A DNA stretch of 41,003 nt, from positions 1-41,003 of the IMG/VR virus record IMGVR_UViG_3300028393_000135. One strand, 5' to 3'. Positions 1 through 39,359 of this stretch are shown here, piece after piece. Source of the stretch: a virus. A program made the position numbers and the translations under genes. Each line of letters opens with the position of its first letter. The stretch's first letter is position 1. The notes beneath the pieces are model-generated. The model ran no database searches. It was not told the origin of the DNA and worked only from the letters and a program-made list of their open reading frames with translations.

Positions 1-280
1 CGTACTGAGTAATAGAGAATTGAGCCGCAGAAATAGGGCTATCAGGGGTGATGTTCAATACTTCGTAACCGCTATATGAATTTGCGTTATTGGTATTTGG
101 ATCGTTGTACATGATTTCTTGCAAAATCACATTACCGCCTGAGAACGGTTGAACATTTCCTTTAGCGTTCAAACGCTGTAGGATCGCATTGTTTTGTGTT
201 AAGTTATCAGCCAAAATTCCGCTACGGCTTTGTATGGTAGTAGCGATAATATCGGTGATTGCTGAGTTAGCAAATGCCAT
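1..280 (-). CDS. Major capsid protein, N-terminal part (left copy, intronless, runs off window)
   Basis: The first 93 codons of a major capsid (coat) protein, starting at the ATG at 280 and running off the left edge. The translation begins MAFANSAITDIIATT and continues without interruption through NVILQEIMYNDPNTNN. The same protein is encoded at 35013-36464, where an intron interrupts the gene inside the leucine codon of VILQEI. Here the equivalent codons read ATT TTG CAA with no insertion, so this is an intron-minus allele. The scaffold gene lies just upstream (304-1398), the usual head-gene order. The assignment rests on synteny and on the C-terminal sequence of the right-hand copy. Confidence 0.8.
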   Translation of the reverse strand, partial: MAFANSAITDIIATTIQSRSGILADNLTQNNAILQRLNAKGNVQPFSGGNVILQEIMYNDPNTNNANSYSGYEVLNITPDSPISAAQFSITQY

Positions 281-303
281 GATATTTCCTTTATTAGATT
301 AAG

Positions 304-1398
304 TTAAACCCGACCACCCTCAACATCGGCTAAAGAAGCCAACAGTAAAGATCGTCTATCCTTTGCATCTGTGTTTTTCACCTGACCGCTAGGAGTAACG
401 GATTTTGGACTAACAGCAGTTGCTTTAGCTTTAGCTACTTGTTGTGCCTTAGACGCTTGTGAACTTGTTGATCTCAGGAGTTTATCCTGTTCTAACTTGA
501 ACGCTTCGTCATTCATACGCACCGCTTTGGCATAAGCCGATTCTAGGTCTTGGGCTAAACCTCGCTCAAGTAATTGAGCCATATCTTCCCTTACCATATC
601 AAAGTGCGGAAACCGCTCTTTGTTACTACTTACCCGACTGATTTCATTACTCAATCGAGCATTTTCTTCTTGCTCCCGTATTGCCGACAGTTGCTGAACT
701 TGTTGCTGGGTAGCTTGAAGTTGTTGCATTAACTGTTGCTGATACGGGTCAACATACGCCTGTTCAGGCATCTGAAGTGCATCTTGATTTAATTGTATTC
801 CATAATCTTGTGCAAGTCTATTAAAGGCAGTTAACTTTTGCTCGTAAGATCCGTTAGCTAAAGTGTAGTGTGCTCGACCTAAATTGTTAATCCAAGCAGA
901 CGGTGAAATACCGTGCCTTTGCAATTCAGGAATGAACGGGCCAATAGCGTTAGTTATTTCCCTAGCGTTGTCGGCTTCAGCTTTGTAGGTAGATACGCCT
1001 TTTTTGTACTCAGCTTCGCGTTGGTTAGCATATTCAGCAAACTTAACGAATTCAGCTTTATCTAGCGGCTTACCTTCCTGCATCTTGTCCCAAACATCCC
1101 TATATTCCTTTTTCCATGTGGTAGGGCGTTTTACTTCGGTTTCTTCATTAGCATCACTAGCTTCATTAACCAGTTCAGGTTCTTCAGCGGAATCGTCTTG
1201 GCTACTGGTTTCTTCGGCATTGCTTTTGAAACGACCTTTTTCGTCACGGTCTGTTTGGCTACTGTTTTCTTCGTTTTCGGCTTGGATTGGATCGTCATTT
1301 ACTTCAATCTCCTTTTCAATGGGGGCTTCTAAAGTGCCTTCTTCGGCTTGTTCAAGTGCGGCTTCTAGCATCTCTCTGCGGTCTAATTCTTCTGCCAT
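304..1398 (-). CDS. Scaffolding protein (left copy)
   Basis: A 364-aa acidic, Q/E-rich protein directly upstream of the capsid gene, the standard place for a scaffold that guides prohead assembly. The N-terminal ~90 residues are low-complexity E/N/S/D. Around residues 95-130 there is a segment containing TTWKKEYRDVWDKMQEGKPL, recurrent in phage scaffold proteins. A predicted coiled coil with runs of glutamine lies near residues 215-250, and the C-terminus is basic (DRRSLLLASLADVEGGRV), as expected for coat binding. It is nearly identical to the protein at 36488-37594 except in the acidic linker, which has small insertions and deletions. It starts at an ATG preceded by AGGAATTAATC. Function is inferred from position and composition. 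Confidence 0.75.
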   Translation of the reverse strand: MAEELDRREMLEAALEQAEEGTLEAPIEKEIEVNDDPIQAENEENSSQTDRDEKGRFKSNAEETSSQDDSAEEPELVNEASDANEETEVKRPTTWKKEYRDVWDKMQEGKPLDKAEFVKFAEYANQREAEYKKGVSTYKAEADNAREITNAIGPFIPELQRHGISPSAWINNLGRAHYTLANGSYEQKLTAFNRLAQDYGIQLNQDALQMPEQAYVDPYQQQLMQQLQATQQQVQQLSAIREQEENARLSNEISRVSSNKERFPHFDMVREDMAQLLERGLAQDLESAYAKAVRMNDEAFKLEQDKLLRSTSSQASKAQQVAKAKATAVSPKSVTPSGQVKNTDAKDRRSLLLASLADVEGGRV

Positions 1399-1407
1399 GA
1401 TTAATTC

Positions 1408-1785
1408 CTATCTGTAGTTGAGTTTGGAGTAAGCTATTTCCGCAATTTGTTGCTTGCGTTCTTGCTGTTCTTTTCTTGAAAATTCATGCACTTTTTGACC
1501 TGTTGGCACATCGTTACCTAGCTCAACACAACCATTTCGCTTAAGGTTTTCCCTATGTTTAGAACGGCTATCAATCCATGAGCCATCAGCCATAGATATA
1601 TGACCAGCTATATCTGAAATAACTGTAGGGGCTACCCTAGACCTCATTGCCACCTTATCTTGCCAAGATGCTTTGGCGGCTTCCTCGCCAATAGTCGGTG
1701 TCCACCATTCAAGGAAGAATTCTTCGTCAGTTTTTTGGACTTCTATGTGATTTCCTTCGGAATATCCGCATTTTGGGCAGAGCAT
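1408..1785 (-). CDS. Conserved head-module protein with CxxC N-terminus (left copy)
   Basis: A 125-aa protein between the glycosyltransferase and the scaffold. The N-terminus contains CPKCGYSEGNH, half of a zinc ribbon, with no clear second CxxC pair. The C-terminal ~70 residues (HISMADGSWIDSRSKHRENLKRNGC and after) are almost identical to the copy at 37604-38002, whereas the first ~55 residues differ strongly between the copies. It overlaps the upstream gene by one base (TAATG), so translation is probably coupled. I do not recognise a function. The basic C-terminal half (RKEQQERKQQ) could bind nucleic acid or scaffold. Confidence 0.7.
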   Translation of the reverse strand: MLCPKCGYSEGNHIEVQKTDEEFFLEWWTPTIGEEAAKASWQDKVAMRSRVAPTVISDIAGHISMADGSWIDSRSKHRENLKRNGCVELGNDVPTGQKVHEFSRKEQQERKQQIAEIAYSKLNYR

Positions 1786-2690
1786 TACATTCTCCTTATA
1801 AGTTCAGGTAGTTGGTCGTATTCTTCGGGTCTAAGTAGGCAAACGCTGTCATACCAACGGGCATTTTTCCACCGCCAGCAGACAAATTCCTCTTTTGGCA
1901 ACAAAACGATACATTTAACGCCCAAAGCACCAGCAAGGTGAGCCGTTCCTGTGTCAACAGTCACAATTCCCTTCATGGCCTTCATGTGAGAAGCAGTCTG
2001 AACCCAATTTTTCTTCCATCCATCGTTAGGAAGTGGGTGAAATAAGCCATCAGAGTTAGGATTTAGCGAATATGCGTCATCCCCGACCATTTCAGCCATG
2101 TGTTGATGGGCAACGGACTTGATGTAATACAAGGTTTGCTTAGATGCTTCCCAATTCACACCGATTTTGGGTGGAATATTGCTAGGCAGAGCGTGTAAAT
2201 AGCCTTCTGAACCTACAATCTTGTTCCGTGTAACGGGAAATAGCGATTTTACAATGGGATGGGCTAACGAAATATAGTACGGGAGCGACATTGACCCGAT
2301 CCAGTAATCAGATTCGTTAGAAATACCCTCTAAACCGTTGCTAAACACATCTACAGCGTGTATTTGACCTAACAGGTGGTGCAATGTACCTTCTTGCAGA
2401 ACAACGACCCTAGACGCTCCTAATGCCTTTAATGCTGGCAAGAATCGGGCAAACATAATAATGTCCCCAAAACCTTGTTCCATTTGTACAGTAATGGATT
2501 TCCCTATTAGGGCTTCCCCTCTCCATACAGGCATCTTTAATGCAGGTGCGTAAGGCTGGGCTTGTTTGGCAATAATGTCAGGATGCCAGCGGTATTCAAA
2601 TCCTCTAAAGCCAGCTTCATATCTGCCAGCGTGTAGGTGCTCGTAAGCTAATTTGTATTGGCTATCAGCGTCTAGTGCAGTAGTAGTAAT
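1785..2690 (-). CDS. Glycosyltransferase-like protein, probable AUU start (left copy)
   Basis: A probable glycosyltransferase resembling the GT9/heptosyltransferase-like domains found next to TPR repeats. Seen: a nucleotide-binding type segment GKSITVQMEQGFGDIIMFARF, and a C-terminal VTVDTGTAHLAGALGVKCIVLLP typical of GT9 enzymes (sugar-donor site). The first ATG is at 2534, but 52 further conserved codons precede it (YKLAYEHLHAGRYEAGF, a TPR-like helix pair) with no ATG, GTG or TTG. The only good start is an ATT at 2690-2688, seven bases after GAGG. The copy at 38002-38907 has the same arrangement. Substrate unknown; it might modify host LPS or a virion protein. The family call is from motifs, and the start is inference. 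Confidence 0.72.
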   Translation of the reverse strand: MTTTALDADSQYKLAYEHLHAGRYEAGFRGFEYRWHPDIIAKQAQPYAPALKMPVWRGEALIGKSITVQMEQGFGDIIMFARFLPALKALGASRVVVLQEGTLHHLLGQIHAVDVFSNGLEGISNESDYWIGSMSLPYYISLAHPIVKSLFPVTRNKIVGSEGYLHALPSNIPPKIGVNWEASKQTLYYIKSVAHQHMAEMVGDDAYSLNPNSDGLFHPLPNDGWKKNWVQTASHMKAMKGIVTVDTGTAHLAGALGVKCIVLLPKEEFVCWRWKNARWYDSVCLLRPEEYDQLPELIRRM

Positions 2691-3148
2691 AGTGCAACCT
2701 CATCGTCTAGTTCCTCTAGGCGTTTGGCTTCCATATACCGCAGATTCTCTTGAATGAGATTTTGCTGTTTTCTAAAAGCTACTGCCGCAAGGATGTTATC
2801 CCGTTGTTTTTCAAGGTAGCTTATAGACCGCTGTAATTCTTCTGTTTCAGCTAACGGTATATCAGCTTTAACCTCTTGTTTTGATTGTACTTTAGATTGC
2901 TTAACTTTTGCAATAGGCGTTGGATCTATCTGATCCTTAAATGCTTGCTTGCGTGAAGCGTTAGCGTCTTTGGTAGCTTGCTCTAGTTTGCGTTGACGCT
3001 CCGCAATCTTTTTATTTAACTTTTGTGCTCGATCCCATTCTTCTTTTGTCCAGCCATCGCCACCAGCTACTACAGTAGGAGTAGGCGGTAATCCGCTTAT
3101 CTGAAACGCATTGTTTTGAAACGCATTGGCTTGAAAAGCTGTTTGCAA
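2672..3148 (-). CDS. Coiled-coil protein of the fibre/head module (left copy)
   Basis: A 158-aa hypothetical protein. The N-terminus has a repeated FQxNAFQ motif (FQANAFQNNAFQISG), followed by a glycine/proline linker and then a long charged helix with coiled-coil character (KLNKKIAERQRKLEQATKDA; a second around LQRSISYLEKQRDNILA). It ends in leucines (ALLLLLH). It overlaps the next gene's proposed ATT start by 19 bases. The homologue at 38889-39359 keeps the helices but has diverged between residues 15 and 35. The F-x-x-N-A-F repeat next to fibres suggests a virion or adaptor peptide, but no known function is recognised. Confidence 0.65.
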   Translation of the reverse strand: MQTAFQANAFQNNAFQISGLPPTPTVVAGGDGWTKEEWDRAQKLNKKIAERQRKLEQATKDANASRKQAFKDQIDPTPIAKVKQSKVQSKQEVKADIPLAETEELQRSISYLEKQRDNILAAVAFRKQQNLIQENLRYMEAKRLEELDDEVALLLLLH

Positions 3149-17199: not shown

Positions 17200-17230
17200 A
17201 GTATATGTTAAGTTGTCTTAATGATGTCTA
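17200..17230 (-). promoter_or_regulatory. Early leftward promoter with embedded operator
   Basis: The -10 is TATACT (205-200 on the minus strand). A TAGACA-like -35 lies 19 bases upstream, which is a weak match. The palindrome TTAAGACAACTTAA (208-221) occupies the spacer, so a bound repressor would block polymerase. It drives the operon beginning at 17193. Confidence 0.55.
17208..17221. promoter_or_regulatory. Operator TTAAG-N4-CTTAA, site 1
   Basis: A perfect palindrome TTAAG-TTGT-CTTAA (plus strand). The same 5+4+5 motif is at 18597-18610 and 20654-20669, and a near-perfect site is at 18542-18556. It is a probable binding site for the Cro-like protein at 18313-18543. Confidence 0.65.
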
Positions 17231-17251: not shown

Positions 17252-17437
17252 CTATGTGTTGCGTAGTAGCAACATCTCAGTACGCCACCAAAATTCACTT
17301 GCAATAAAAGACTTTAAATCTTGGCGTTTTGTGTAGTTGTAGGTTTCAGCTAGATGGTAGTCATTCCACCGCTGTAGGCTTTTAGGTAATGGTGTTTCTT
17401 GCAAATCTAGGTTTTCAAGCATTTGTAGTTTTCCCAT
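17252..17437 (-). CDS. Hypothetical protein, 61 aa, start uncertain
   Basis: Translation from an ATG at 17437 gives MGKLQMLENLDLQETPLPKS, then LQRWNDYHLAETYNYTKRQD and a final WRTEMLLLRNT. The frame stays open upstream to a TTG at 17500 without ATG, and upstream of that lies the structured stretch. A GGTGG 11 bases before the ATG is the only ribosome-site candidate. Composition is protein-like, but no family is recognised. The gene could begin at the TTG (82 aa) or be a remnant. Confidence 0.45.
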   Translation of the reverse strand: MGKLQMLENLDLQETPLPKSLQRWNDYHLAETYNYTKRQDLKSFIASEFWWRTEMLLLRNT

Positions 17438-17501
17438 AGAACGACCAACCACCGATGTGGGTTTTATTCTAGTGATGTATGCCGTTGCAAGGCTGTCCAA
17501 G

Positions 17502-17760
17502 TCGGCTAGAACCGATTACTTGGGGGTATTGCAGGTGTCGACCCTCGCTCCAGTTCATTTTCTAACTGGCCTCTACCCCATCTAACCTATTTCGCTGGCT
17601 TTTTGCGACACGGTAACCCGCTTGTGACGCCAACCCAAAAGAAAAAGCTCCATTCAACTGGGCTGGGGTCTGGAAAGATGACAAAGTAGTAAAACTAGGT
17701 AGTCAATCCAGCCCATGTGAATAGAGCCTTACGCTACGGTGTCGAGTTTTCCAGACCTGA
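17502..17760 (-). ncRNA. Candidate structured non-coding RNA with pseudoknot
   Basis: About 250 bases, visibly richer in G+C than the flanks and with no convincing ORF. Helix A: 17748-17757 pairs perfectly with 17667-17676 (GGTCTGGAAA/TTTCCAGACC). Helix B: 17708-17727 pairs with 17647-17666 over 17 of 20 positions, with an extra G-U pair if read as minus-strand RNA. The order A-B-A'-B' is a pseudoknot, with A' and B' directly adjacent. Further hairpins: 17605-17611 with 17624-17630 (one mismatch), 17550-17555 with 17564-17569, and an enclosing GGGGTA/TACCCC (17523-17528 with 17574-17579). Alternative: 17606-17611 with 17739-17744. A TATAAT on the minus strand at 17768-17773 could start it. 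It matches no RNA family I recognise. Confidence 0.5.
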
Positions 17761-17768
17761 CCACCGTA

Positions 17769-18320
17769 TTATAACCCAAGTCTTTCAAAATTAAAATCTC
17801 CGTGAAAGCCAAATGTTTTAATGTTGGACAATTCACGTTCAAAGCTAAAGTAACGGGCTAATTCTTCAGGTGCAAACTTCATGCCCTGACTTTCTAAAAA
17901 TTCTTTATTTGCGTGGCAGATTTGGTCATCTTCATTTTCATTGGTATATGCAAATTTAGGGCTGGCAGTTAATTCACATAGCACCCTTGAGCGTAGGCTA
18001 AAGCCACCATTACCTACCCTTTTACCTTCTTCATGCCAATGCCATACTGCCCCAATGTAGTCATATTCTAAAAATTGGTCGTTCCAAGCATCAGGATTGA
18101 TAATATACCCATCCCATTGAACTATTAAAACAAAGTCCGTGTAGACCTGTTTATACAATTCTTGAAGGATAAATTTGCTGTACGCTTGACGGCTATTAAT
18201 TTTAGGGTCAGTTATAAAGATTTCACCGCCAAAATCAAAGTATTCTTTACACTTGTCCATTGCTTTTTTGGCTTTGTCAGGCTGTACTGAATCAACACAA
18301 CATAGGGTAATGTTATTCAA
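17769..18320 (-). CDS. DUF5672-like glycosyltransferase-related protein
   Basis: A 183-aa protein with DFVLIVQWDGYIINPDAWND, then YDYIGAVWHWHEEGKRVGNG and GFSLRSRVLCELTASP. The WDG, YDYIGA and VGNGGFSLRS signatures are those of DUF5672, a glycosyltransferase-like family common in phages and capsule loci. The acidic D-G/D-D positions would bind metal and nucleotide sugar. It overlaps the Cro-like gene by eight bases and so is co-transcribed with it, an odd partner for a repressor. It might act as a lysogeny- or early-expressed surface modifier (inference). Confidence 0.8.
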   Translation of the reverse strand: MNNITLCCVDSVQPDKAKKAMDKCKEYFDFGGEIFITDPKINSRQAYSKFILQELYKQVYTDFVLIVQWDGYIINPDAWNDQFLEYDYIGAVWHWHEEGKRVGNGGFSLRSRVLCELTASPKFAYTNENEDDQICHANKEFLESQGMKFAPEELARYFSFERELSNIKTFGFHGDFNFERLGL

Positions 18321-18543
18321 TTTCAGGCCAAATTAGCTTGTAATTGTTTGGAAACAAGTTTTTACGGGTAACTAGCCCATGTGATTCTTTTTCTAGGGTG
18401 GCGGCAAGGATCACCAGTTTATCGTAAGGAATGTCCCCGTTTTGCCACATAGATACGGCTGGAACGGACACATTGACCATCTTAGATACCCGTGTACAAC
18501 CGCCTAAAAGTCGAATCATTGCTGTTGATGATATTTTATCCAT
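18313..18543 (-). CDS. Cro/YdaS-like helix-turn-helix repressor
   Basis: A 76-aa protein. The HTH lies in TRVSKMVNVSVPAVSMWQNG (VSVPAVSMW is the recognition helix region), followed by DIPYDKLVILAATLEKES, the pattern of Cro- and YdaS-type phage repressors. It is divergent from the plus-strand early operon, with a palindromic operator in the shared region and another across its own start. No Shine-Dalgarno is visible; a -10 (TAAGAT) ends five bases before the ATG, so its mRNA is probably leaderless, as for lambda cI from PRM. No integrase is present, so whether it serves lysogeny or only early timing is open. Confidence 0.85.
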   Translation of the reverse strand: MDKISSTAMIRLLGGCTRVSKMVNVSVPAVSMWQNGDIPYDKLVILAATLEKESHGLVTRKNLFPNNYKLIWPEIE

Positions 18544-18584: not shown

Positions 18585-18613
18585 TTGCTTTATGTTTTAA
18601 GTTGGCTTAATAT
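18585..18613 (+). promoter_or_regulatory. Early rightward promoter
   Basis: The -35 TTGCTT (18585-18590), a 17-base spacer and the -10 TAATAT (18608-18613) make a good sigma70-type promoter. The operator at 18597-18610 fills the spacer and overlaps the -10. It drives the operon from 18653. Confidence 0.7.
18597..18610. promoter_or_regulatory. Operator TTAAG-N4-CTTAA, site 3
   Basis: A perfect palindrome TTAAG-TTGG-CTTAA inside the rightward promoter. A separate inverted repeat ACGG-N6-CCGT follows at about 18620-18633 in the leader and may be a second regulatory element. Confidence 0.7.
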
Positions 18614-20652: not shown

Positions 20653-20675
20653 TGTTAAGATAGCTTAACTAAACT
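20647..20675 (+). promoter_or_regulatory. Second rightward early promoter
   Basis: The -35 TTGCAT (20647-20652), a 17-base spacer and the -10 TAAACT (20670-20675). The palindrome at 20654-20669 occupies almost the whole spacer. A leader with a small CTCA/TGAG hairpin follows, then AAAGGAG before the ATG at 20718. Confidence 0.65.
20654..20669. promoter_or_regulatory. Operator GTTAAG-N4-CTTAAC, site 4
   Basis: The longest version of the motif: GTTAAG-ATAG-CTTAAC, perfect over six bases per arm. Its core (TTAAGATAGCTTA) is the same as site 2 read on the minus strand. Confidence 0.7.
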
Positions 20676-35012: not shown

Positions 35013-36464
35013 TTAAGTTGTCAAAACACCTTGCAAAAACGCATTTGAACAAGTCAAATTTCCAGCCCAACCATACAACTTCACAATCTTTCTGTTACTT
35101 CGGCTTTCGCCTACTGACCATTTTCATGGCGGAGCAACTTCTTCGAATCGCTCTCTAGGACTTCAAACTTCAAGTTATATCCTAGTTCAGACTATCGCTT
35201 ACTCTTTCGAGCCCATCTCACTTAGTCGTTCACGGTGGCTTTCGCCTTCCGCCCTGTCATCCCCTTCGGGATTTCCAAGTCAATCAGAGTTGGTTTATAG
35301 ACACCATTAATGCAATGTAGGTTTAGCGTCTTGGTTAATGGATTGGCGTTCTCCACCGATAGGAACGAAATTACGCTCTTTATGTGGACGCAAGAAAATG
35401 TAATTTGTGTTTAGCAAATACATATATGTTGCGTTTTCTTGAGCACCGTAACCGCCACCCAAGATCACATCAGCAGACATACCGCCACCGTAGAACTTGA
35501 GGGAAGCGAAACCAGCCGCACCTTCTTCTACACCTGCGATACGCTGAATAGCCTGTAAAGACTGAACATAGTATGAGTAGAAAGTGTTACCAGCTACGAT
35601 TGTGTCAACCTTATCAGTTCCGCGAACAGACTTGATAGCGGCATCAGTCATTTTAGCTTGAATGTTTGCGTAACCAGTTACACCAGTTGTCGCTTGATTC
35701 TGCCAAAATGTCCAGTTGGCACGATTTATGCCACCGTACACGCCCGACGTAGGGCTAGTACTAACGGCCGCGGCCAATCCGGTGATGTTTTTTCCCCCGT
35801 TACCTGTACCGTCACCATAGATGTCAGTAGAAATACGGTTCAACAAACGAGCTTCAGAAACTTGCATACGGCCGTCTAACAGGTCGATGATCTGTTCCTT
35901 AGAACTGTTTTGCAACATTTCTAGACCACTCATTGTCACAGAATCAGCGTACTGCGTAATGCTGAACTGAGCCGCAGAGATAGGGCTATCAGGGGTAATA
36001 TTCAATACTTCATAACCGCTATACGAGTTAGCATTATTTGTATTTGGATCGTTGTACATAATTTCTTGGCACTGTTGTTACGAACCGATCCAGTTCGGCA
36101 TAGTCATTTCTGCTATGCTCTTGGACTTAAATTACTTCAAGTTATATCCAAGGTCAGACTATCGCTCCATCCGTTTCGGATGCCCTCTCACTTAGTCGTT
36201 CAGGCTGTATTTAAACTTGCCCCTTGTTGTCCCCTTCGGGAGTTCCAAGCCAATCAGAGAAGGTTCTCACATCTACATTCGACTGTAGAGTGACCCCATT
36301 TAACTAAGGATTACATTTCCCCCACTAAAAGGCTGTACATTCCCTTTAGCTTGTAAGCGTTGAAGAATCGCATTGTTTTGTGTTAAGTTATCTGCCAATA
36401 CTCCGCTACGGCTTTGAATGGTAGTAGCGATAATATCGGTGATTGCTGAATTAGCAAATGCCAT
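35013..36464 (-). CDS. Major capsid protein, split by two group I introns
   Basis: Three exons join into 984 nt (327 aa): 36464-36307, 36069-35315 and 35083-35013. Exon 1 begins MAFANSAITDIIATT and ends inside the Leu codon of NVIL. Exon 2 continues QEIMYNDPNTNNANSYSGYE to DAKPT. Exon 3 encodes KLYGWAGNLTCSNAFLQGVLTT after the rebuilt Leu codon. GWAGNLTCSNAFLQGVLTT is a characteristic coat-protein C-terminus, and no stop occurs in the joined frame, whereas exon 2 alone stops within the intron. The left-end copy (1-280) reads through the first junction without an intron. The protein forms the capsid lattice. Downstream are the 97-aa head gene and a terminator. Splice points are chosen by frame, the U-G pair at the 5' site and a G at the intron end. 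Confidence 0.85.
35084..35314 (-). ncRNA. Group I intron 2 in the major capsid gene
   Basis: A 231-nt insertion near the 3' end of the capsid gene. The 5' splice site is ACAT|TG, where ACAU pairs with GUGU in the intron (U-G at the splice site). It ends in G before TGAAG. The core matches intron 1: GGAAATCCCGAAGGGGAT, then GAACGACTAAGTGAGATGG and AAGCGATAGTCTGA, forming P7 (TAGTC/GACTA on the plus strand at 35223-35227 and 35190-35194), with a GCTC-GAAA-GAGT P8 hairpin between. A CTAGGA/TCCTAG helix follows (35155-35160, 35180-35185). No ORF is present, so it has no homing endonuclease of its own. Confidence 0.85.
36070..36306 (-). ncRNA. Group I intron 1 in the major capsid gene
   Basis: A 237-nt insertion after codon 52 plus two bases of the capsid gene. 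The 5' exon ends AUCCU, which pairs with GGGGU in the intron, with the U-G wobble at the splice site. The intron ends in G before CCAAGAAATT. Core: GCTTGGAACTCCCGAAGGGG, then GAACGACTAAGTGAGAGGGC, a P8 hairpin CATCCG-AAA-CGGATG, and GAGCGATAGTCTGACC closing P7 (36157-36161 with 36193-36197). A CTTGGA/TCCAAG helix follows (36120-36125 with 36147-36152). The equivalent helix in intron 2 is CTAGGA/TCCTAG, a compensatory change. The intron is ORF-less, and absent from the left copy at about 126-130. Confidence 0.88.
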
Positions 36465-36487
36465 GATATTTCCTTTATTAGATTAAG

Positions 36488-37594
36488 TTAAACCCGACCA
36501 CCTTCAACATCGGCTAAAGAAGCCAACAATAAAGATCGTCTATCCTTTGCATCTGTGTTTTTCACCTGACCGCTAGGAGTAACGGACTTTGGACTAACAG
36601 CAGTCGCTTTAGCTTTAGCTACTTGTTGTGCCTTAGATGCTTGTGAACTCGTTGATCTCAGGAGTTTATCCTGCTCCAACTTGAACGCTTCATCATTCAT
36701 ACGCACAGCTTTGGCATAAGCCGATTCTAGGTCTTGGGCTAAACCTCGCTCAAGTAATTGAGCCATATCTTCCCTTACCATATCAAAGTGCGGAAACCGC
36801 TCTCTGTCACTACTTACCCGATTGATTTCATTACTCAATCGAGCATTTTCTTCTTGCTCCCGTATCGCTGATAGTTGCTGAACTTGTTGCTGGGTAGCTT
36901 GAAGTTGTTGCATTAACTGTTGCTGATACGGATCAACATACGCCTGTTCAGGCATCTGAAGTGCATCTTGGTTTAATTGTATTCCATAATCTTGTGCAAG
37001 TCTATTAAACGCAGTTAGCTTTTGCTCGTAAGAACCGTTGGCTAAAGTGTAATGTGCTCTACCTAAATTGTTAATCCAAGCAGAAGGTGAAATACCATGC
37101 TTTTGCAATTCAGGAATAAATGGGCCAATAGCGTTAGTTATCTCTCTAGCATTGTCGGCTTCAGCTTTGTAGGTAGATACGCCTTTTTTGTATTCAGCTT
37201 CACGCTGGTTGGCATATTCAGCAAACTTAATAAATTCAGCCTTGTCTAATGGCTTGCCTTCCTGCATCTTGTCCCAAACATCCCGATACTCTTTTTTCCA
37301 AGTAGTAGGGCGTTTTACTTCGGCTTCTTCATTATCATCACCAGCTTCATTAGCCAGTTCAGATTCTTGATTGGAATTGTCTTGGCTACTGGTTTCTTCG
37401 GCATTGCTTTTGAAACGACCTTTTTCGTCACGGTCGTTGCTTTTTTGGCTACTATCGTTGCTTTCTTGGTTTTCGGCTTGGATTGGGTCGTCATTTACTT
37501 CAATCTCCTTTTCAATGGGGGCTTCTAATGTACCTTCTTCGGCTTGTTCTAATGCGGCTTCTAGCATTTCTCTGCGGTCTAATTCTTCTGCCAT
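36488..37594 (-). CDS. Scaffolding protein (right copy)
   Basis: A 368-aa scaffold, nearly identical to 304-1398, just upstream of the capsid gene. Differences cluster in the acidic linker (residues ~40-90), where a SNDSSQKSNDRDEKG-type insertion replaces the left version, and in scattered conservative changes. It has the same coiled coil near residues 220-255 and the same basic C-terminus. Role inferred from gene order. Confidence 0.75.
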   Translation of the reverse strand: MAEELDRREMLEAALEQAEEGTLEAPIEKEIEVNDDPIQAENQESNDSSQKSNDRDEKGRFKSNAEETSSQDNSNQESELANEAGDDNEEAEVKRPTTWKKEYRDVWDKMQEGKPLDKAEFIKFAEYANQREAEYKKGVSTYKAEADNAREITNAIGPFIPELQKHGISPSAWINNLGRAHYTLANGSYEQKLTAFNRLAQDYGIQLNQDALQMPEQAYVDPYQQQLMQQLQATQQQVQQLSAIREQEENARLSNEINRVSSDRERFPHFDMVREDMAQLLERGLAQDLESAYAKAVRMNDEAFKLEQDKLLRSTSSQASKAQQVAKAKATAVSPKSVTPSGQVKNTDAKDRRSLLLASLADVEGGRV

Positions 37595-37603
37595 GATTAA
37601 TTC

Positions 37604-38002
37604 CTATCTGTAGTTGAGTTTGGAGTAAGCTATTTCCGCAATTTGTTGCTTGCGTTCTTGCTGTTCTTTTCTTGAAAATTCATGCACTTTTTGCTGTAAT
37701 GGAACATCATTACCCAACTCAACACAATTGTTGCGTTTTAAATTTTCACGGTGCTTTGAACGGCTGGATACCCAAGTACCATCAGCCATGCTTATATGAC
37801 CGTTGATGTCAGGAAGTACCATTGGGGCTTCTTTAGGTGTCATATCTAACTTGGCTTGCCATGCTTTATCGGCTTCTTCGCCTTCAAACGGCAAATTCCA
37901 ATACGCTAAGTACTTTTCACGGTCATTATATTGCGTTGCATCATATTCTTCGTGGTCAACCTTACAATGTATGCAAGTTACCGTCTTTTTTACTAAAGCC
38001 AT
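37604..38002 (-). CDS. Conserved head-module protein with CxxC N-terminus (right copy)
   Basis: A 132-aa homologue of 1408-1785. The N-terminus is different (ALVKKTVTCIHCKVDHEEYD, one CxxC), but the C-terminal ~70 residues (HISMADGTWVSSRSKHRENL and after) are conserved. The bipartite divergence suggests that the N-terminal half has been replaced by recombination or is under diversifying pressure. Function unknown. Confidence 0.7.
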   Translation of the reverse strand: MALVKKTVTCIHCKVDHEEYDATQYNDREKYLAYWNLPFEGEEADKAWQAKLDMTPKEAPMVLPDINGHISMADGTWVSSRSKHRENLKRNNCVELGNDVPLQQKVHEFSRKEQQERKQQIAEIAYSKLNYR

Positions 38003-38907
38003 TACATTCTCCTTATCAGTTCAGGCAGTTGGTCGTATTCTTCGGGTCTGAGTAGGCAAATGCTGTCATACCAACGGGCATTTTTCCATCGCCAGCAAAC
38101 AAATTCTTCTTTTGGTAGCAAAACAATACATTTCACGCCCAAAGCACCAGCAAGGTGAGCCGTTCCTGTGTCAACGGTCACGATTCCCTTCATGGCTTTC
38201 ATGTGGCTGGCTGTTTGTACCCAGTTTTTCTTCCATCCATCATTAGGAAGTGGGTGAAATAGGCCATCAGAGTTAGGATTGAGCGAATATGCGTCATCTC
38301 CAACCAGTTCAGCCATGTGTTGATGGGCAATAGACTTGATGTAATACAGAGTTTGTTTGGATGCTTCCCAATTTACCCCTATTTTGGGTGGAATATTGCT
38401 AGGCAGGGCGTGTAGATAGCCTTCTGAACCCACAATCTTGTTCCGTGTAACGGGAAATAGCGATTTAACAAGGGGGTGCATCAAAGAAATATAGTACGGG
38501 AGTGACATTGAGCCAATCCAATAGTCAGATTCGTTGGCAATACCCTCTAATCCATTGCTAAACACATCTACAGCGTGTATTTGACCTAATAGGTGGTGCA
38601 ATGTACCTTCTTGCAGGACAACGACCCTAGATGCCCCCAATGCTTTCAAAGCTGGCAAAAATCGGGCAAACATAATGATGTCACCAAATCCCTGTTCCAT
38701 TTGTACGGTGATGGATTTACCTATCAGCGGCTCACCTCTCCATACAGGCATTTTTAAAGCAGGTGCGTAAGGTTGGGCTTGTTTGGCAATAATGTCAGGA
38801 TGCCAGCGGTATTCAAATCCTCTAAATCCAGCTTCATACCTTCCAGCGTGTAAATGCTCGTAAGCTAACTTGTATTGTGCGTCAGCGTCTAATGTAGAAG
38901 TATTAAT
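38002..38907 (-). CDS. Glycosyltransferase-like protein, probable AUU start (right copy)
   Basis: The homologue of 1785-2690, with identical length if started at the ATT at 38907-38905, seven bases after GAGG. It carries the same GKSITVQMEQGFGDI and VTVDTGTAHLAGALGVKC motifs. The ATG at 38751 would remove a conserved TPR-like segment. The 5' part varies around the start (INTSTLDADAQ instead of ITTTALDADSQ), but the ATT and the GAGG are kept. Confidence 0.72.
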   Translation of the reverse strand: MNTSTLDADAQYKLAYEHLHAGRYEAGFRGFEYRWHPDIIAKQAQPYAPALKMPVWRGEPLIGKSITVQMEQGFGDIIMFARFLPALKALGASRVVVLQEGTLHHLLGQIHAVDVFSNGLEGIANESDYWIGSMSLPYYISLMHPLVKSLFPVTRNKIVGSEGYLHALPSNIPPKIGVNWEASKQTLYYIKSIAHQHMAELVGDDAYSLNPNSDGLFHPLPNDGWKKNWVQTASHMKAMKGIVTVDTGTAHLAGALGVKCIVLLPKEEFVCWRWKNARWYDSICLLRPEEYDQLPELIRRM

Positions 38908-39359
38908 ACGGATTCCTCATCGTCTAGTTCCTCTAGGCGTTTGGCTTCCATATACATCAATTGCTCTTGAATAAGAGTTTGTTGTTTTCTGTAAGCTACT
39001 GCCGCAAGGATGTTATCCCGTTGTCTTTCGAGGTAGCTTATAGACCGTTGTAAATCTTCTGTTTCAGCTAACGGTATATCAGCCTTAACCTCTTGTTTTG
39101 ATTGTACTTTAGATTGCTTAACTTTTGCAACAGGCGATACTAGATCACGAATGGATTGTTTACGACTAGCATTAGCATCTTTAATAGCTTGCTCTAGCTT
39201 GCGTTGACGCTCTGCAATCTTTTTGCCTAATCGTTGTGCTCGTAACCATTCTTCTTTGGTAAAGCCATCGCCACCAATTTGCCCTGTTGGGGTCGGTGCT
39301 ACATAGACCTGAAAGGCATTGTTTTGAAACGCATTAGCTTGAAAAGCCGTTGAAAACAT
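38889..39359 (-). CDS. Coiled-coil protein of the fibre/head module (right copy)
   Basis: A 156-aa homologue of 2672-3148: MFSTAFQANAFQNNAFQVYV, then a linker with GQIGGDGFTKEEWLRAQRLG and the same two helical blocks. The start overlaps the fibre stop (TAATG), whereas the left copy starts after the 82-aa partner gene. This position shift accompanies the fibre-tip exchange. Function unknown. Confidence 0.65.
   Translation of the reverse strand: MFSTAFQANAFQNNAFQVYVAPTPTGQIGGDGFTKEEWLRAQRLGKKIAERQRKLEQAIKDANASRKQSIRDLVSPVAKVKQSKVQSKQEVKADIPLAETEDLQRSISYLERQRDNILAAVAYRKQQTLIQEQLMYMEAKRLEELDDEESVLILLH

Follow-up and report, generated by a model that had tools for sequence, protein, structure and literature searches.

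GOLLD and ROOL are large structured RNAs of phages and prophages that contain several pseudoknots and whose function is unknown, a ROOL example measuring ~660 nt and GOLLD >800 nt, often near tRNA islands (PMC12286853). These two RNAs are nearest in kind to the RNA described here. The put RNA of phage HK022 consists of two short stem-loops, acts in cis and is present in two copies per phage. As a structured RNA, put acts on early phage genes (PMC9378689).

The stretch analysed here (the window) is a 41,003-base IMG/VR virus record which carries portal, terminase, major head, tail and lysis genes. The window ends, 1-3143 and 36310-39351, are ~87% identical over 3 kb, and the record probably covers a ~36.2-kb genome more than once, joining two strains. 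On the minus strand, a conserved element extends from a TATAAT hexamer (17773) to ~17438; the bounds 17502-17760, proposed for a structured RNA in an initial sequence-only reading, are thus too short. We consider it probable that the element is a dedicated, independent noncoding RNA gene of a tailed phage, ~330 nt in the window (17767 to ~17438, minus strand) and ~370-420 nt in relatives, for which there are no transcript data. Judged from the sequence, the RNA is composed of two domains, a 5' domain with a pseudoknot of helices b and c followed by an exchangeable 3' domain. The structured RNA presumably starts 6-7 nt after the TATAAT, a position that is inferred. The hexamer and the neighbouring genes are as follows.

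18313-18543, minus strand: small helix-turn-helix gene, Cro/YdaS-like repressor, of the family that is the commonest upstream neighbour of the RNA
17769-18320, minus strand: DUF5672 gene (PF18922), just upstream of the RNA
17768-17773, minus strand: TATAAT, candidate -10 hexamer, overlapping the end of the DUF5672 gene
17252-17422, minus strand: small ORF, 56 aa from ATG, directly downstream and outside the RNA structure

The TATAAT lies where it had been reported, just upstream of the structure, and the region is G+C-rich as described (49% G+C versus 37-46% across the 1-kb bins of the window). The description of the stretch as lacking ORFs is only partly upheld: most ORFs are short and mechanical, but an 82-aa ORF from TTG (17252-17500) touches the RNA. 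This ORF ends in the neighbouring gene and overlaps the RNA only in its 3' part; the conserved portion of the ORF probably begins with the ATG at 17422. There is no sign of coding in relatives, as stops occur in all three minus-strand frames of 17762-17438 and indels between relatives are not multiples of three; no conserved reading frame exists between the DUF5672 gene and the small ORF (ATG 17422, minus strand). Folding energy alone is unremarkable, with z-scores of -1.65 and -1.84 for the minus and plus strands of the window element and 7/100 and 4/100 shuffles, respectively, folding as well as the native sequence; the folding program cannot form a pseudoknot. Action of the RNA as an antisense to other parts of the phage was considered and rejected, since neither the RNA nor its complement matches any other place in the window over more than 11 nt while shuffles reach 14 nt.

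The 5' domain is built from the following parts.

17748-17757, minus strand: 5' strand of helix b (pseudoknot), from complementarity and the swap test
17732-17743, minus strand: strand d/f', lying between b and c and able to pair either with the loop (d') or with the stretch 5' of b (f)
17708-17727, minus strand: 5' strand of helix c, from complementarity and the swap test
17677-17707, minus strand: loop between c and b', which holds hairpin e and whose apex pairs with strand d in relatives
17667-17676, minus strand: 3' strand of helix b, abutting c', from complementarity, the swap test and T2 pair changes
17647-17666, minus strand: 3' strand of helix c, from complementarity, the swap test and T2 pair changes
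17637-17647, minus strand: U-run (CTTTTTCTTTT) directly after helix c

Both long complementary pairs recognised in the sequence-only reading are confirmed: pair b (17748-17757 with 17667-17676) matches at 10/10 positions and pair c (17708-17727 with 17647-17666) has 17/20 Watson-Crick pairs, one U-G and two mismatches, the wobble being U-G on the minus strand as had been stated. Likewise, the strands cross in the order b-c-b'-c' and the 3' strands abut at 17666/17667. Among 400 dinucleotide shuffles of 17502-17760, a 10/10 pair was obtained in 10 and a 17/20 pair in none. Pairing of d is short in the window itself. By eye, the order common to 5' domains is b - d - c - e (loop with d') - b' - c' - U-run.

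Homologues were drawn from IMG/VR. A search with the DUF5672 protein identified 42 viral loci, and in the 15 of these that were inspected a noncoding-looking stretch occupies the same place, opening with a TATA-like hexamer and mostly unlike that of the window. Pattern searches returned 51 stretches for the 5' domain, not all of them true, 103 for a 3' domain termed B, 23 for W3, the 3' domain of the window, and 118 for the core of the Rfam family Betaproteobacteria-1 (RF02932); loci from multiple scans of the same contig were merged only if identical in sequence. No exact match to the B pattern occurs in 84,980 bacterial and archaeal genomes, and the Betaproteobacteria-1 core has three (Variovorax, Ottowia and a Rubrivivax MAG); the Variovorax and Rubrivivax matches are surrounded by phage-type genes for primase, helicase, HNH or NinB, and the Ottowia match, whose phage setting is unclear, has a helicase gene near it. 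The window's element has no blastn match among 50,697 phage records. In Acidovorax phage AP1, an unannotated Betaproteobacteria-1 part lies between the primase gene and the next gene (L210:4883-5177).

Neither domain of the window matches Rfam 15. The window does not meet the gathering threshold of RF02932 (0 matches) or those of GOLLD, ROOL and the other large phage RNAs in Rfam, and matches up to E 10 are attributable to chance (plant and worm miRNA, human lncRNA). Across 20 related loci, RF02932 is the sole Rfam match, in one locus; its threshold is met by L019 (104.7 bits) and by both RNA copies in the contig G001. A tRNA and a group I core had already been discounted, and we agree: ARAGORN finds no tRNA or tmRNA in the window, the Rfam group I core is absent, and the DUF5672 gene ends at a stop of its own, with different sequence behind it in relatives. 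The RNA had also been called undescribed, which holds for the window in that no Rfam family matches it, but relatives carry RF02932 where the window has W3, so that the element is not wholly outside known families. A literature search, which did not cover the original description of RF02932, found nothing on this family or on such a modular phage RNA.

Classification of 119 distinct elements yielded 5' domains of at least four kinds, T1 (that of the window), T2, T3 and a fourth, 3' domains of kinds W3, B, B2, C, C2, C3 and Betaproteobacteria-1, and 14 combinations of the two, with the following numbers of elements.

T1: W3 18, B 6, B2 10, C 1, C2 3
T2: B 37, B2 11, C 13, C2 1
T3: B 6, C 5, C3 1
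Fourth 5' domain: B 6
L019: T2, assigned by eye, with Betaproteobacteria-1 (RF02932)

Individual elements display the joints directly, L013 having an L021-like 5' domain joined to an L008-like 3' domain and L010 a window-like 5' domain joined to an L002-like 3' domain. These comparisons show that the RNA is modular, its 5' and 3' domains recombining freely with each other. T1-, T2- and T3-like stretches are also found before Betaproteobacteria-1 cores. In arrangement, though not in sequence, Betaproteobacteria-1 takes the same place as W3, following a 5' domain of the same kind. Elsewhere it lacks a 5' domain of this sort, in 20 cases lying behind a primase-like gene. HNH endonuclease-like genes lie beside Betaproteobacteria-1, upstream in L224, L254 and L291 and downstream in L245 and L274, that in L224 being confirmed by PHROGs and the other four judged by eye. 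A T3 + C type RNA is present in MW202753 (L211:2972-3403) under the 'hypothetical protein' annotation UOF81610. The fourth 5' kind, which is unrelated to the others, occupies 150-200 nt before B in L126, L149, L151, L153, L178, L181 and L188 and is closed by GCTAGG...CCTAGC-like strands. By eye, a terminator-like hairpin and a TTGCA...TATACT-like promoter of strong appearance directly precede the RNA at these loci.

A TATA-like hexamer precedes the RNA at a nearly fixed distance, ending 6 nt before the 5' motif in 28/38 T1 and 54/58 T2 elements and 7-8 nt before it in 11/11 T3 elements. The exceptions are five T1 elements without a hexamer, two at 7 nt and three without a gap, and one T2 element without a hexamer and three at 8-9 nt. 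No complete promoter consensus was recognised in the window. The exact palindrome TTAAGNNNNCTTAA is present at three sites in the window (17208-17221, 18597-18610 and 20655-20668) versus 0.13 expected, and is likely, by inference, a repressor operator. These sites are early intergenic and none lies at the RNA promoter, from which we infer that the phage repressor does not control that promoter. Similar sites follow the RNA in relatives.

Neighbouring proteins, 165 upstream and 121 downstream from 193 distinct elements, were clustered. The upstream ORF is on the same strand as the RNA in 166/187 cases, whereas 47/171 downstream ORFs are on the opposite strand, antisense-like by eye. The DUF5672 gene is missing from this place in many relatives; in the window and its closest relatives it separates the repressor gene from the RNA, and it is perhaps mobile cargo. 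One reading of the locus is that the RNA serves the next gene as a riboswitch-like or thermosensor-like 5' leader. A GGAG-like ribosome site precedes the small downstream ORF in relatives, and in W3 and some B types the RNA is immediately followed by a ribosome site and ATG, as this reading would have it. The downstream proteins, however, fall into 59 clusters among 121, so that no single gene emerges as a cis target; many loci have a further promoter- and operator-like stretch between the RNA and the gene, and most of the structure is far from the start codon. We regard a leader as unlikely.

Absence of covariation among homologues would have refuted the proposed RNA. Instead, covariation is strong in the swap tests of T1 and T2, in the T2 pair counts and in the W3 domain. 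The swap test is alignment-free and compares the duplex energy of a phage's own strands with that of strands exchanged between phages, over 20,000 permutations. In T1, z-scores are -4.2 for b, -9.3 for d and -3.3 for c, and in T2 -10.1, -12.7 and -9.7, respectively, no permutation being as good in either type. In T3, b is supported (z -5.5, 1 permutation as good) and strand d is not (z 0.0). The test omitted 9 T2 rows, L212 and L208, and the T3 value for c/c' was not used because of an empty strand. Pair counts were made in T2 on 51 distinct sequences of the same architecture out of 63 T2 rows, excluding L172, L150, L212 and L019, the others being identical after trimming or failing the start or length filter. 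In these sequences 96.6% of 2140 cells are paired versus 83.3% after shuffling (0/500 as good), 20/42 pairs are changed on both sides, accounting for 251 cells versus 80.7 in shuffles, and the covariation score is 0.353 versus 0.040-0.058 for slid partners. Taken alone, the count of additional pair types is no higher than in the shuffles (158/500). In the pseudoknot helix b, 6/8 pairs are changed on both sides, one of them occurring as CG 20, GC 20, AU 8 and UA 1 times, and in helix c 7/22 are so changed; at columns 6-110, UA, GC and GU pairs all occur. A natural break in b/b' is found in L197. In T1, b' is shifted by one column between subgroups in the MAFFT alignment, and this type was therefore judged by the swap test and not by columns; by position, 72/81 b/b' cells are paired across 9 distinct strand pairs, with four of the nine failing at position 1 and four at position 3. 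The requirement for an H-type pseudoknot, two crossing helices with covariation support, is met. We regard it as virtually certain that structure at the RNA level is maintained by compensatory mutation.

Complementarity within one sequence cannot separate intramolecular from intermolecular pairs, and the fast-changing b and d strands could in principle pair between molecules of a homo-oligomeric RNA, in the manner of the intermolecular contacts of GOLLD and ROOL. Helix b, however, is short-range and fits a classical H-type pseudoknot, and there are no size or symmetry data; we consider this reading very unlikely. Further pairings near the 5' end are less clear. Strand a at the 5' end of T2 covaries weakly with a' beyond the U-run (z -3.4, 110/20000), and support for a/a' in T1 is also weak (z -1.9). 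A switch in T2, with strand a pairing alternatively with f' or a', was considered and rejected, a/a' being weak and f/f' unsupported (z 0.0). In T1, the 6 nt between the TATAAT and the presumed start covary with f' (z -7.3). In the window, 17759-17767 is complementary to 17735-17743, as is the same place in T1 relatives. That the T1 f/f' repeat reaches into 6 nt presumed to be untranscribed fits none of the proposed explanations well. It does lend something to the notion that the locus has no RNA function and that the inverted repeats are signals in the DNA (recombination hot spot, origin or operator), as does the frequent recombination of the modules. This notion we scarcely credit, since the changes pass via pairs valid as minus-strand RNA, G-U included, in a multi-helix pseudoknotted fold, and a changing sequence disfavours a palindrome recognised by protein.

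Helix c followed by the U-run looks like an intrinsic terminator with a long loop, release of RNA at this point being inferred only; a consensus scan for terminators with loops of 3-8 nt found none in the window. This arrangement is the core of the main rival explanation, in which the element acts in cis on transcription of the phage early operon: c and the U-run would form an intrinsic terminator, with b pinning its large loop, and the 3' domain would modify RNA polymerase as HK022 put does, or the choice between termination and read-through would depend on a factor or ligand. Taken as a whole, we judge this reading to be possible, though on the unlikely side. A sequence-blind detector recovers b-c-b'-c'-U in 36/91 regions before Betaproteobacteria-1 cores versus 3/182 shuffles, including phages of unrelated sequence (L267, L281, L286 and L317) in which the U-run after c is nevertheless kept, a point in favour of this reading. 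The RNA, moreover, lies in the early operon directly after a Cro-like gene in 72/165 cases, and no terminator is recognised at its 3' end. In phage lambda, nutR-tR1 lies at the place right after the Cro gene. Other observations do not fit. The U-run is missing in L103, L105 and L111 and, by eye, in the fourth 5' kind. No b-c-b'-c'-U is detected before Betaproteobacteria-1 in the remaining 55 of the 91 distinct cases, although the detector also misses known cases, recovering 27/34 T1, 55/58 T2 and 4/11 T3. The weak covariation of the T2 5' end with a strand past the U-run suggests that the RNA beyond this point matters, and a second copy per phage, as for put, is not seen in the window.

The 3' domain of the window, W3, is composed of the following elements, defined in an alignment of W3 relatives.

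17594-17634, minus strand: helix P1 (17634-17629 with 17599-17594)
17523-17579, minus strand: stem P2 (17579-17574 with 17528-17523), which encloses hairpins P2b and P2c
17498-17522, minus strand: hairpin P3, with pseudoknot loop UUCUAG (17511-17506)
17467-17472, minus strand: 3' strand of the second pseudoknot, CUAGAA, with 3/6 pairs changed on both sides in 18 relatives
17449-17460, minus strand: terminal hairpin P4, of which 3/4 pairs never vary

Pair counts were made on 18 distinct sequences out of 26 W3 elements, in which 99.5% of cells are paired and 6 pairs are changed on both sides, three in P2 and P2b and three in the second pseudoknot, P2c being invariant. The loop of the second pseudoknot occurs as UUCUAG, UACAAG, AACUAG and UGCAAG, each with a matching partner, and a single cell is unpaired (L095); the swap test on its five distinct strand pairs gives a z of -2.9 (355/20,000). 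On this comparative evidence, W3 contains a second, independently covarying pseudoknot. A kissing pair GUGUCG/CGACAC noticed by eye does not covary in the W3 alignment and is therefore not claimed.

Strands of the 5' domain, above all b and d, change fast. Between elements whose 3' domains are at least 93% identical, the mean differences for the 3' domain, c, b and d are, respectively, 3.9%, 11-18%, 24-31% and 29-43% in T2 (99 pairs) and 2.2%, 3%, 11-13% and 23-25% in T1 (25 pairs). Exchange of whole 5' domains contributes to this divergence. The contig G001 (IMGVR_UViG_3300047557_000594) carries two copies of the RNA, L236 and L241, at places 498 and 35712, 35.2 kb apart; most of the differences between them within the RNA fall in strands b and d and their partners b' and d', and these are in register. 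The upstream flanks of the copies are >90% alike while the downstream flanks diverge, and the contig is perhaps over-long and made of two strains. A more speculative extension, which we hold only tentatively and consider unlikely, is that these RNAs are a new class of combinatorial phage effectors, with b and d diversified in an arms race to serve as a code for self/non-self or for escape while complementarity is kept, and joined to various 3' effectors, comparable to modular toxins or tail-fibre tips but made of RNA.

Our best guess, at no better than even strength and with function not shown, is that the element is transcribed autonomously as a phage RNA that acts in trans and whose effector domain can be exchanged; action in trans, itself an inference, could equally prove wrong. 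The RNA would be transcribed from its own promoter outside the repressor operators, hence early or constitutively. The 5' domain may cap and shape the RNA and carry the fast-changing specificity strands, and the 3' domain may be an effector whose binding partner in trans is a protein or RNA of the host or the phage, conceivably in host takeover or counter-defence. The varied downstream genes, the lone 3' domains and the fourth 5' kind without a U-run argue for an autonomous RNA. Counted against a trans-acting RNA are the features that suit a cis leader, namely the co-directional neighbours, the small ORF directly after W3 and the attenuator-like c and U-run, as well as the lack of a recognised 3' terminator and full promoter, the weak energy z-scores and the f/f' covariation.

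Should the trans-acting reading hold or not, the element adds a widespread and experimentally reachable member to the short list of large phage noncoding RNAs without a function, and the isolate AP1, with its related 3' domain, makes a knockout test possible. Domain shuffling between RNAs is a rare observation, as are fast-changing helices that stay in register, and both may reflect recognition by a counteracting partner. In comparison with known systems, the RNA is a structured phage noncoding RNA, known in kind, whose two domains in the window are absent from Rfam 15. It differs from GOLLD and ROOL in having neither an Rfam match nor a tRNA in the window. Compared with HK022 put, it is longer (330-420 nt), pseudoknotted and preceded by its own promoter-like hexamer, and only one copy is seen. 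It resembles intrinsic terminators in having helix c followed by a U-run but differs in its ~40-nt loop, itself folded and pseudoknotted, and in the absence of the U-run in some relatives. Betaproteobacteria-1 (RF02932, 120 positions) shares with it the position of an exchangeable 3' domain that follows a 5' domain of this kind and the setting among phage early and replication genes, whereas W3 does not match the family and RF02932 does not extend over the 5' domain. The comparison shows that Betaproteobacteria-1 as defined in Rfam can form one half, itself interchangeable, of a larger phage RNA, and this changes the view of what the family is.
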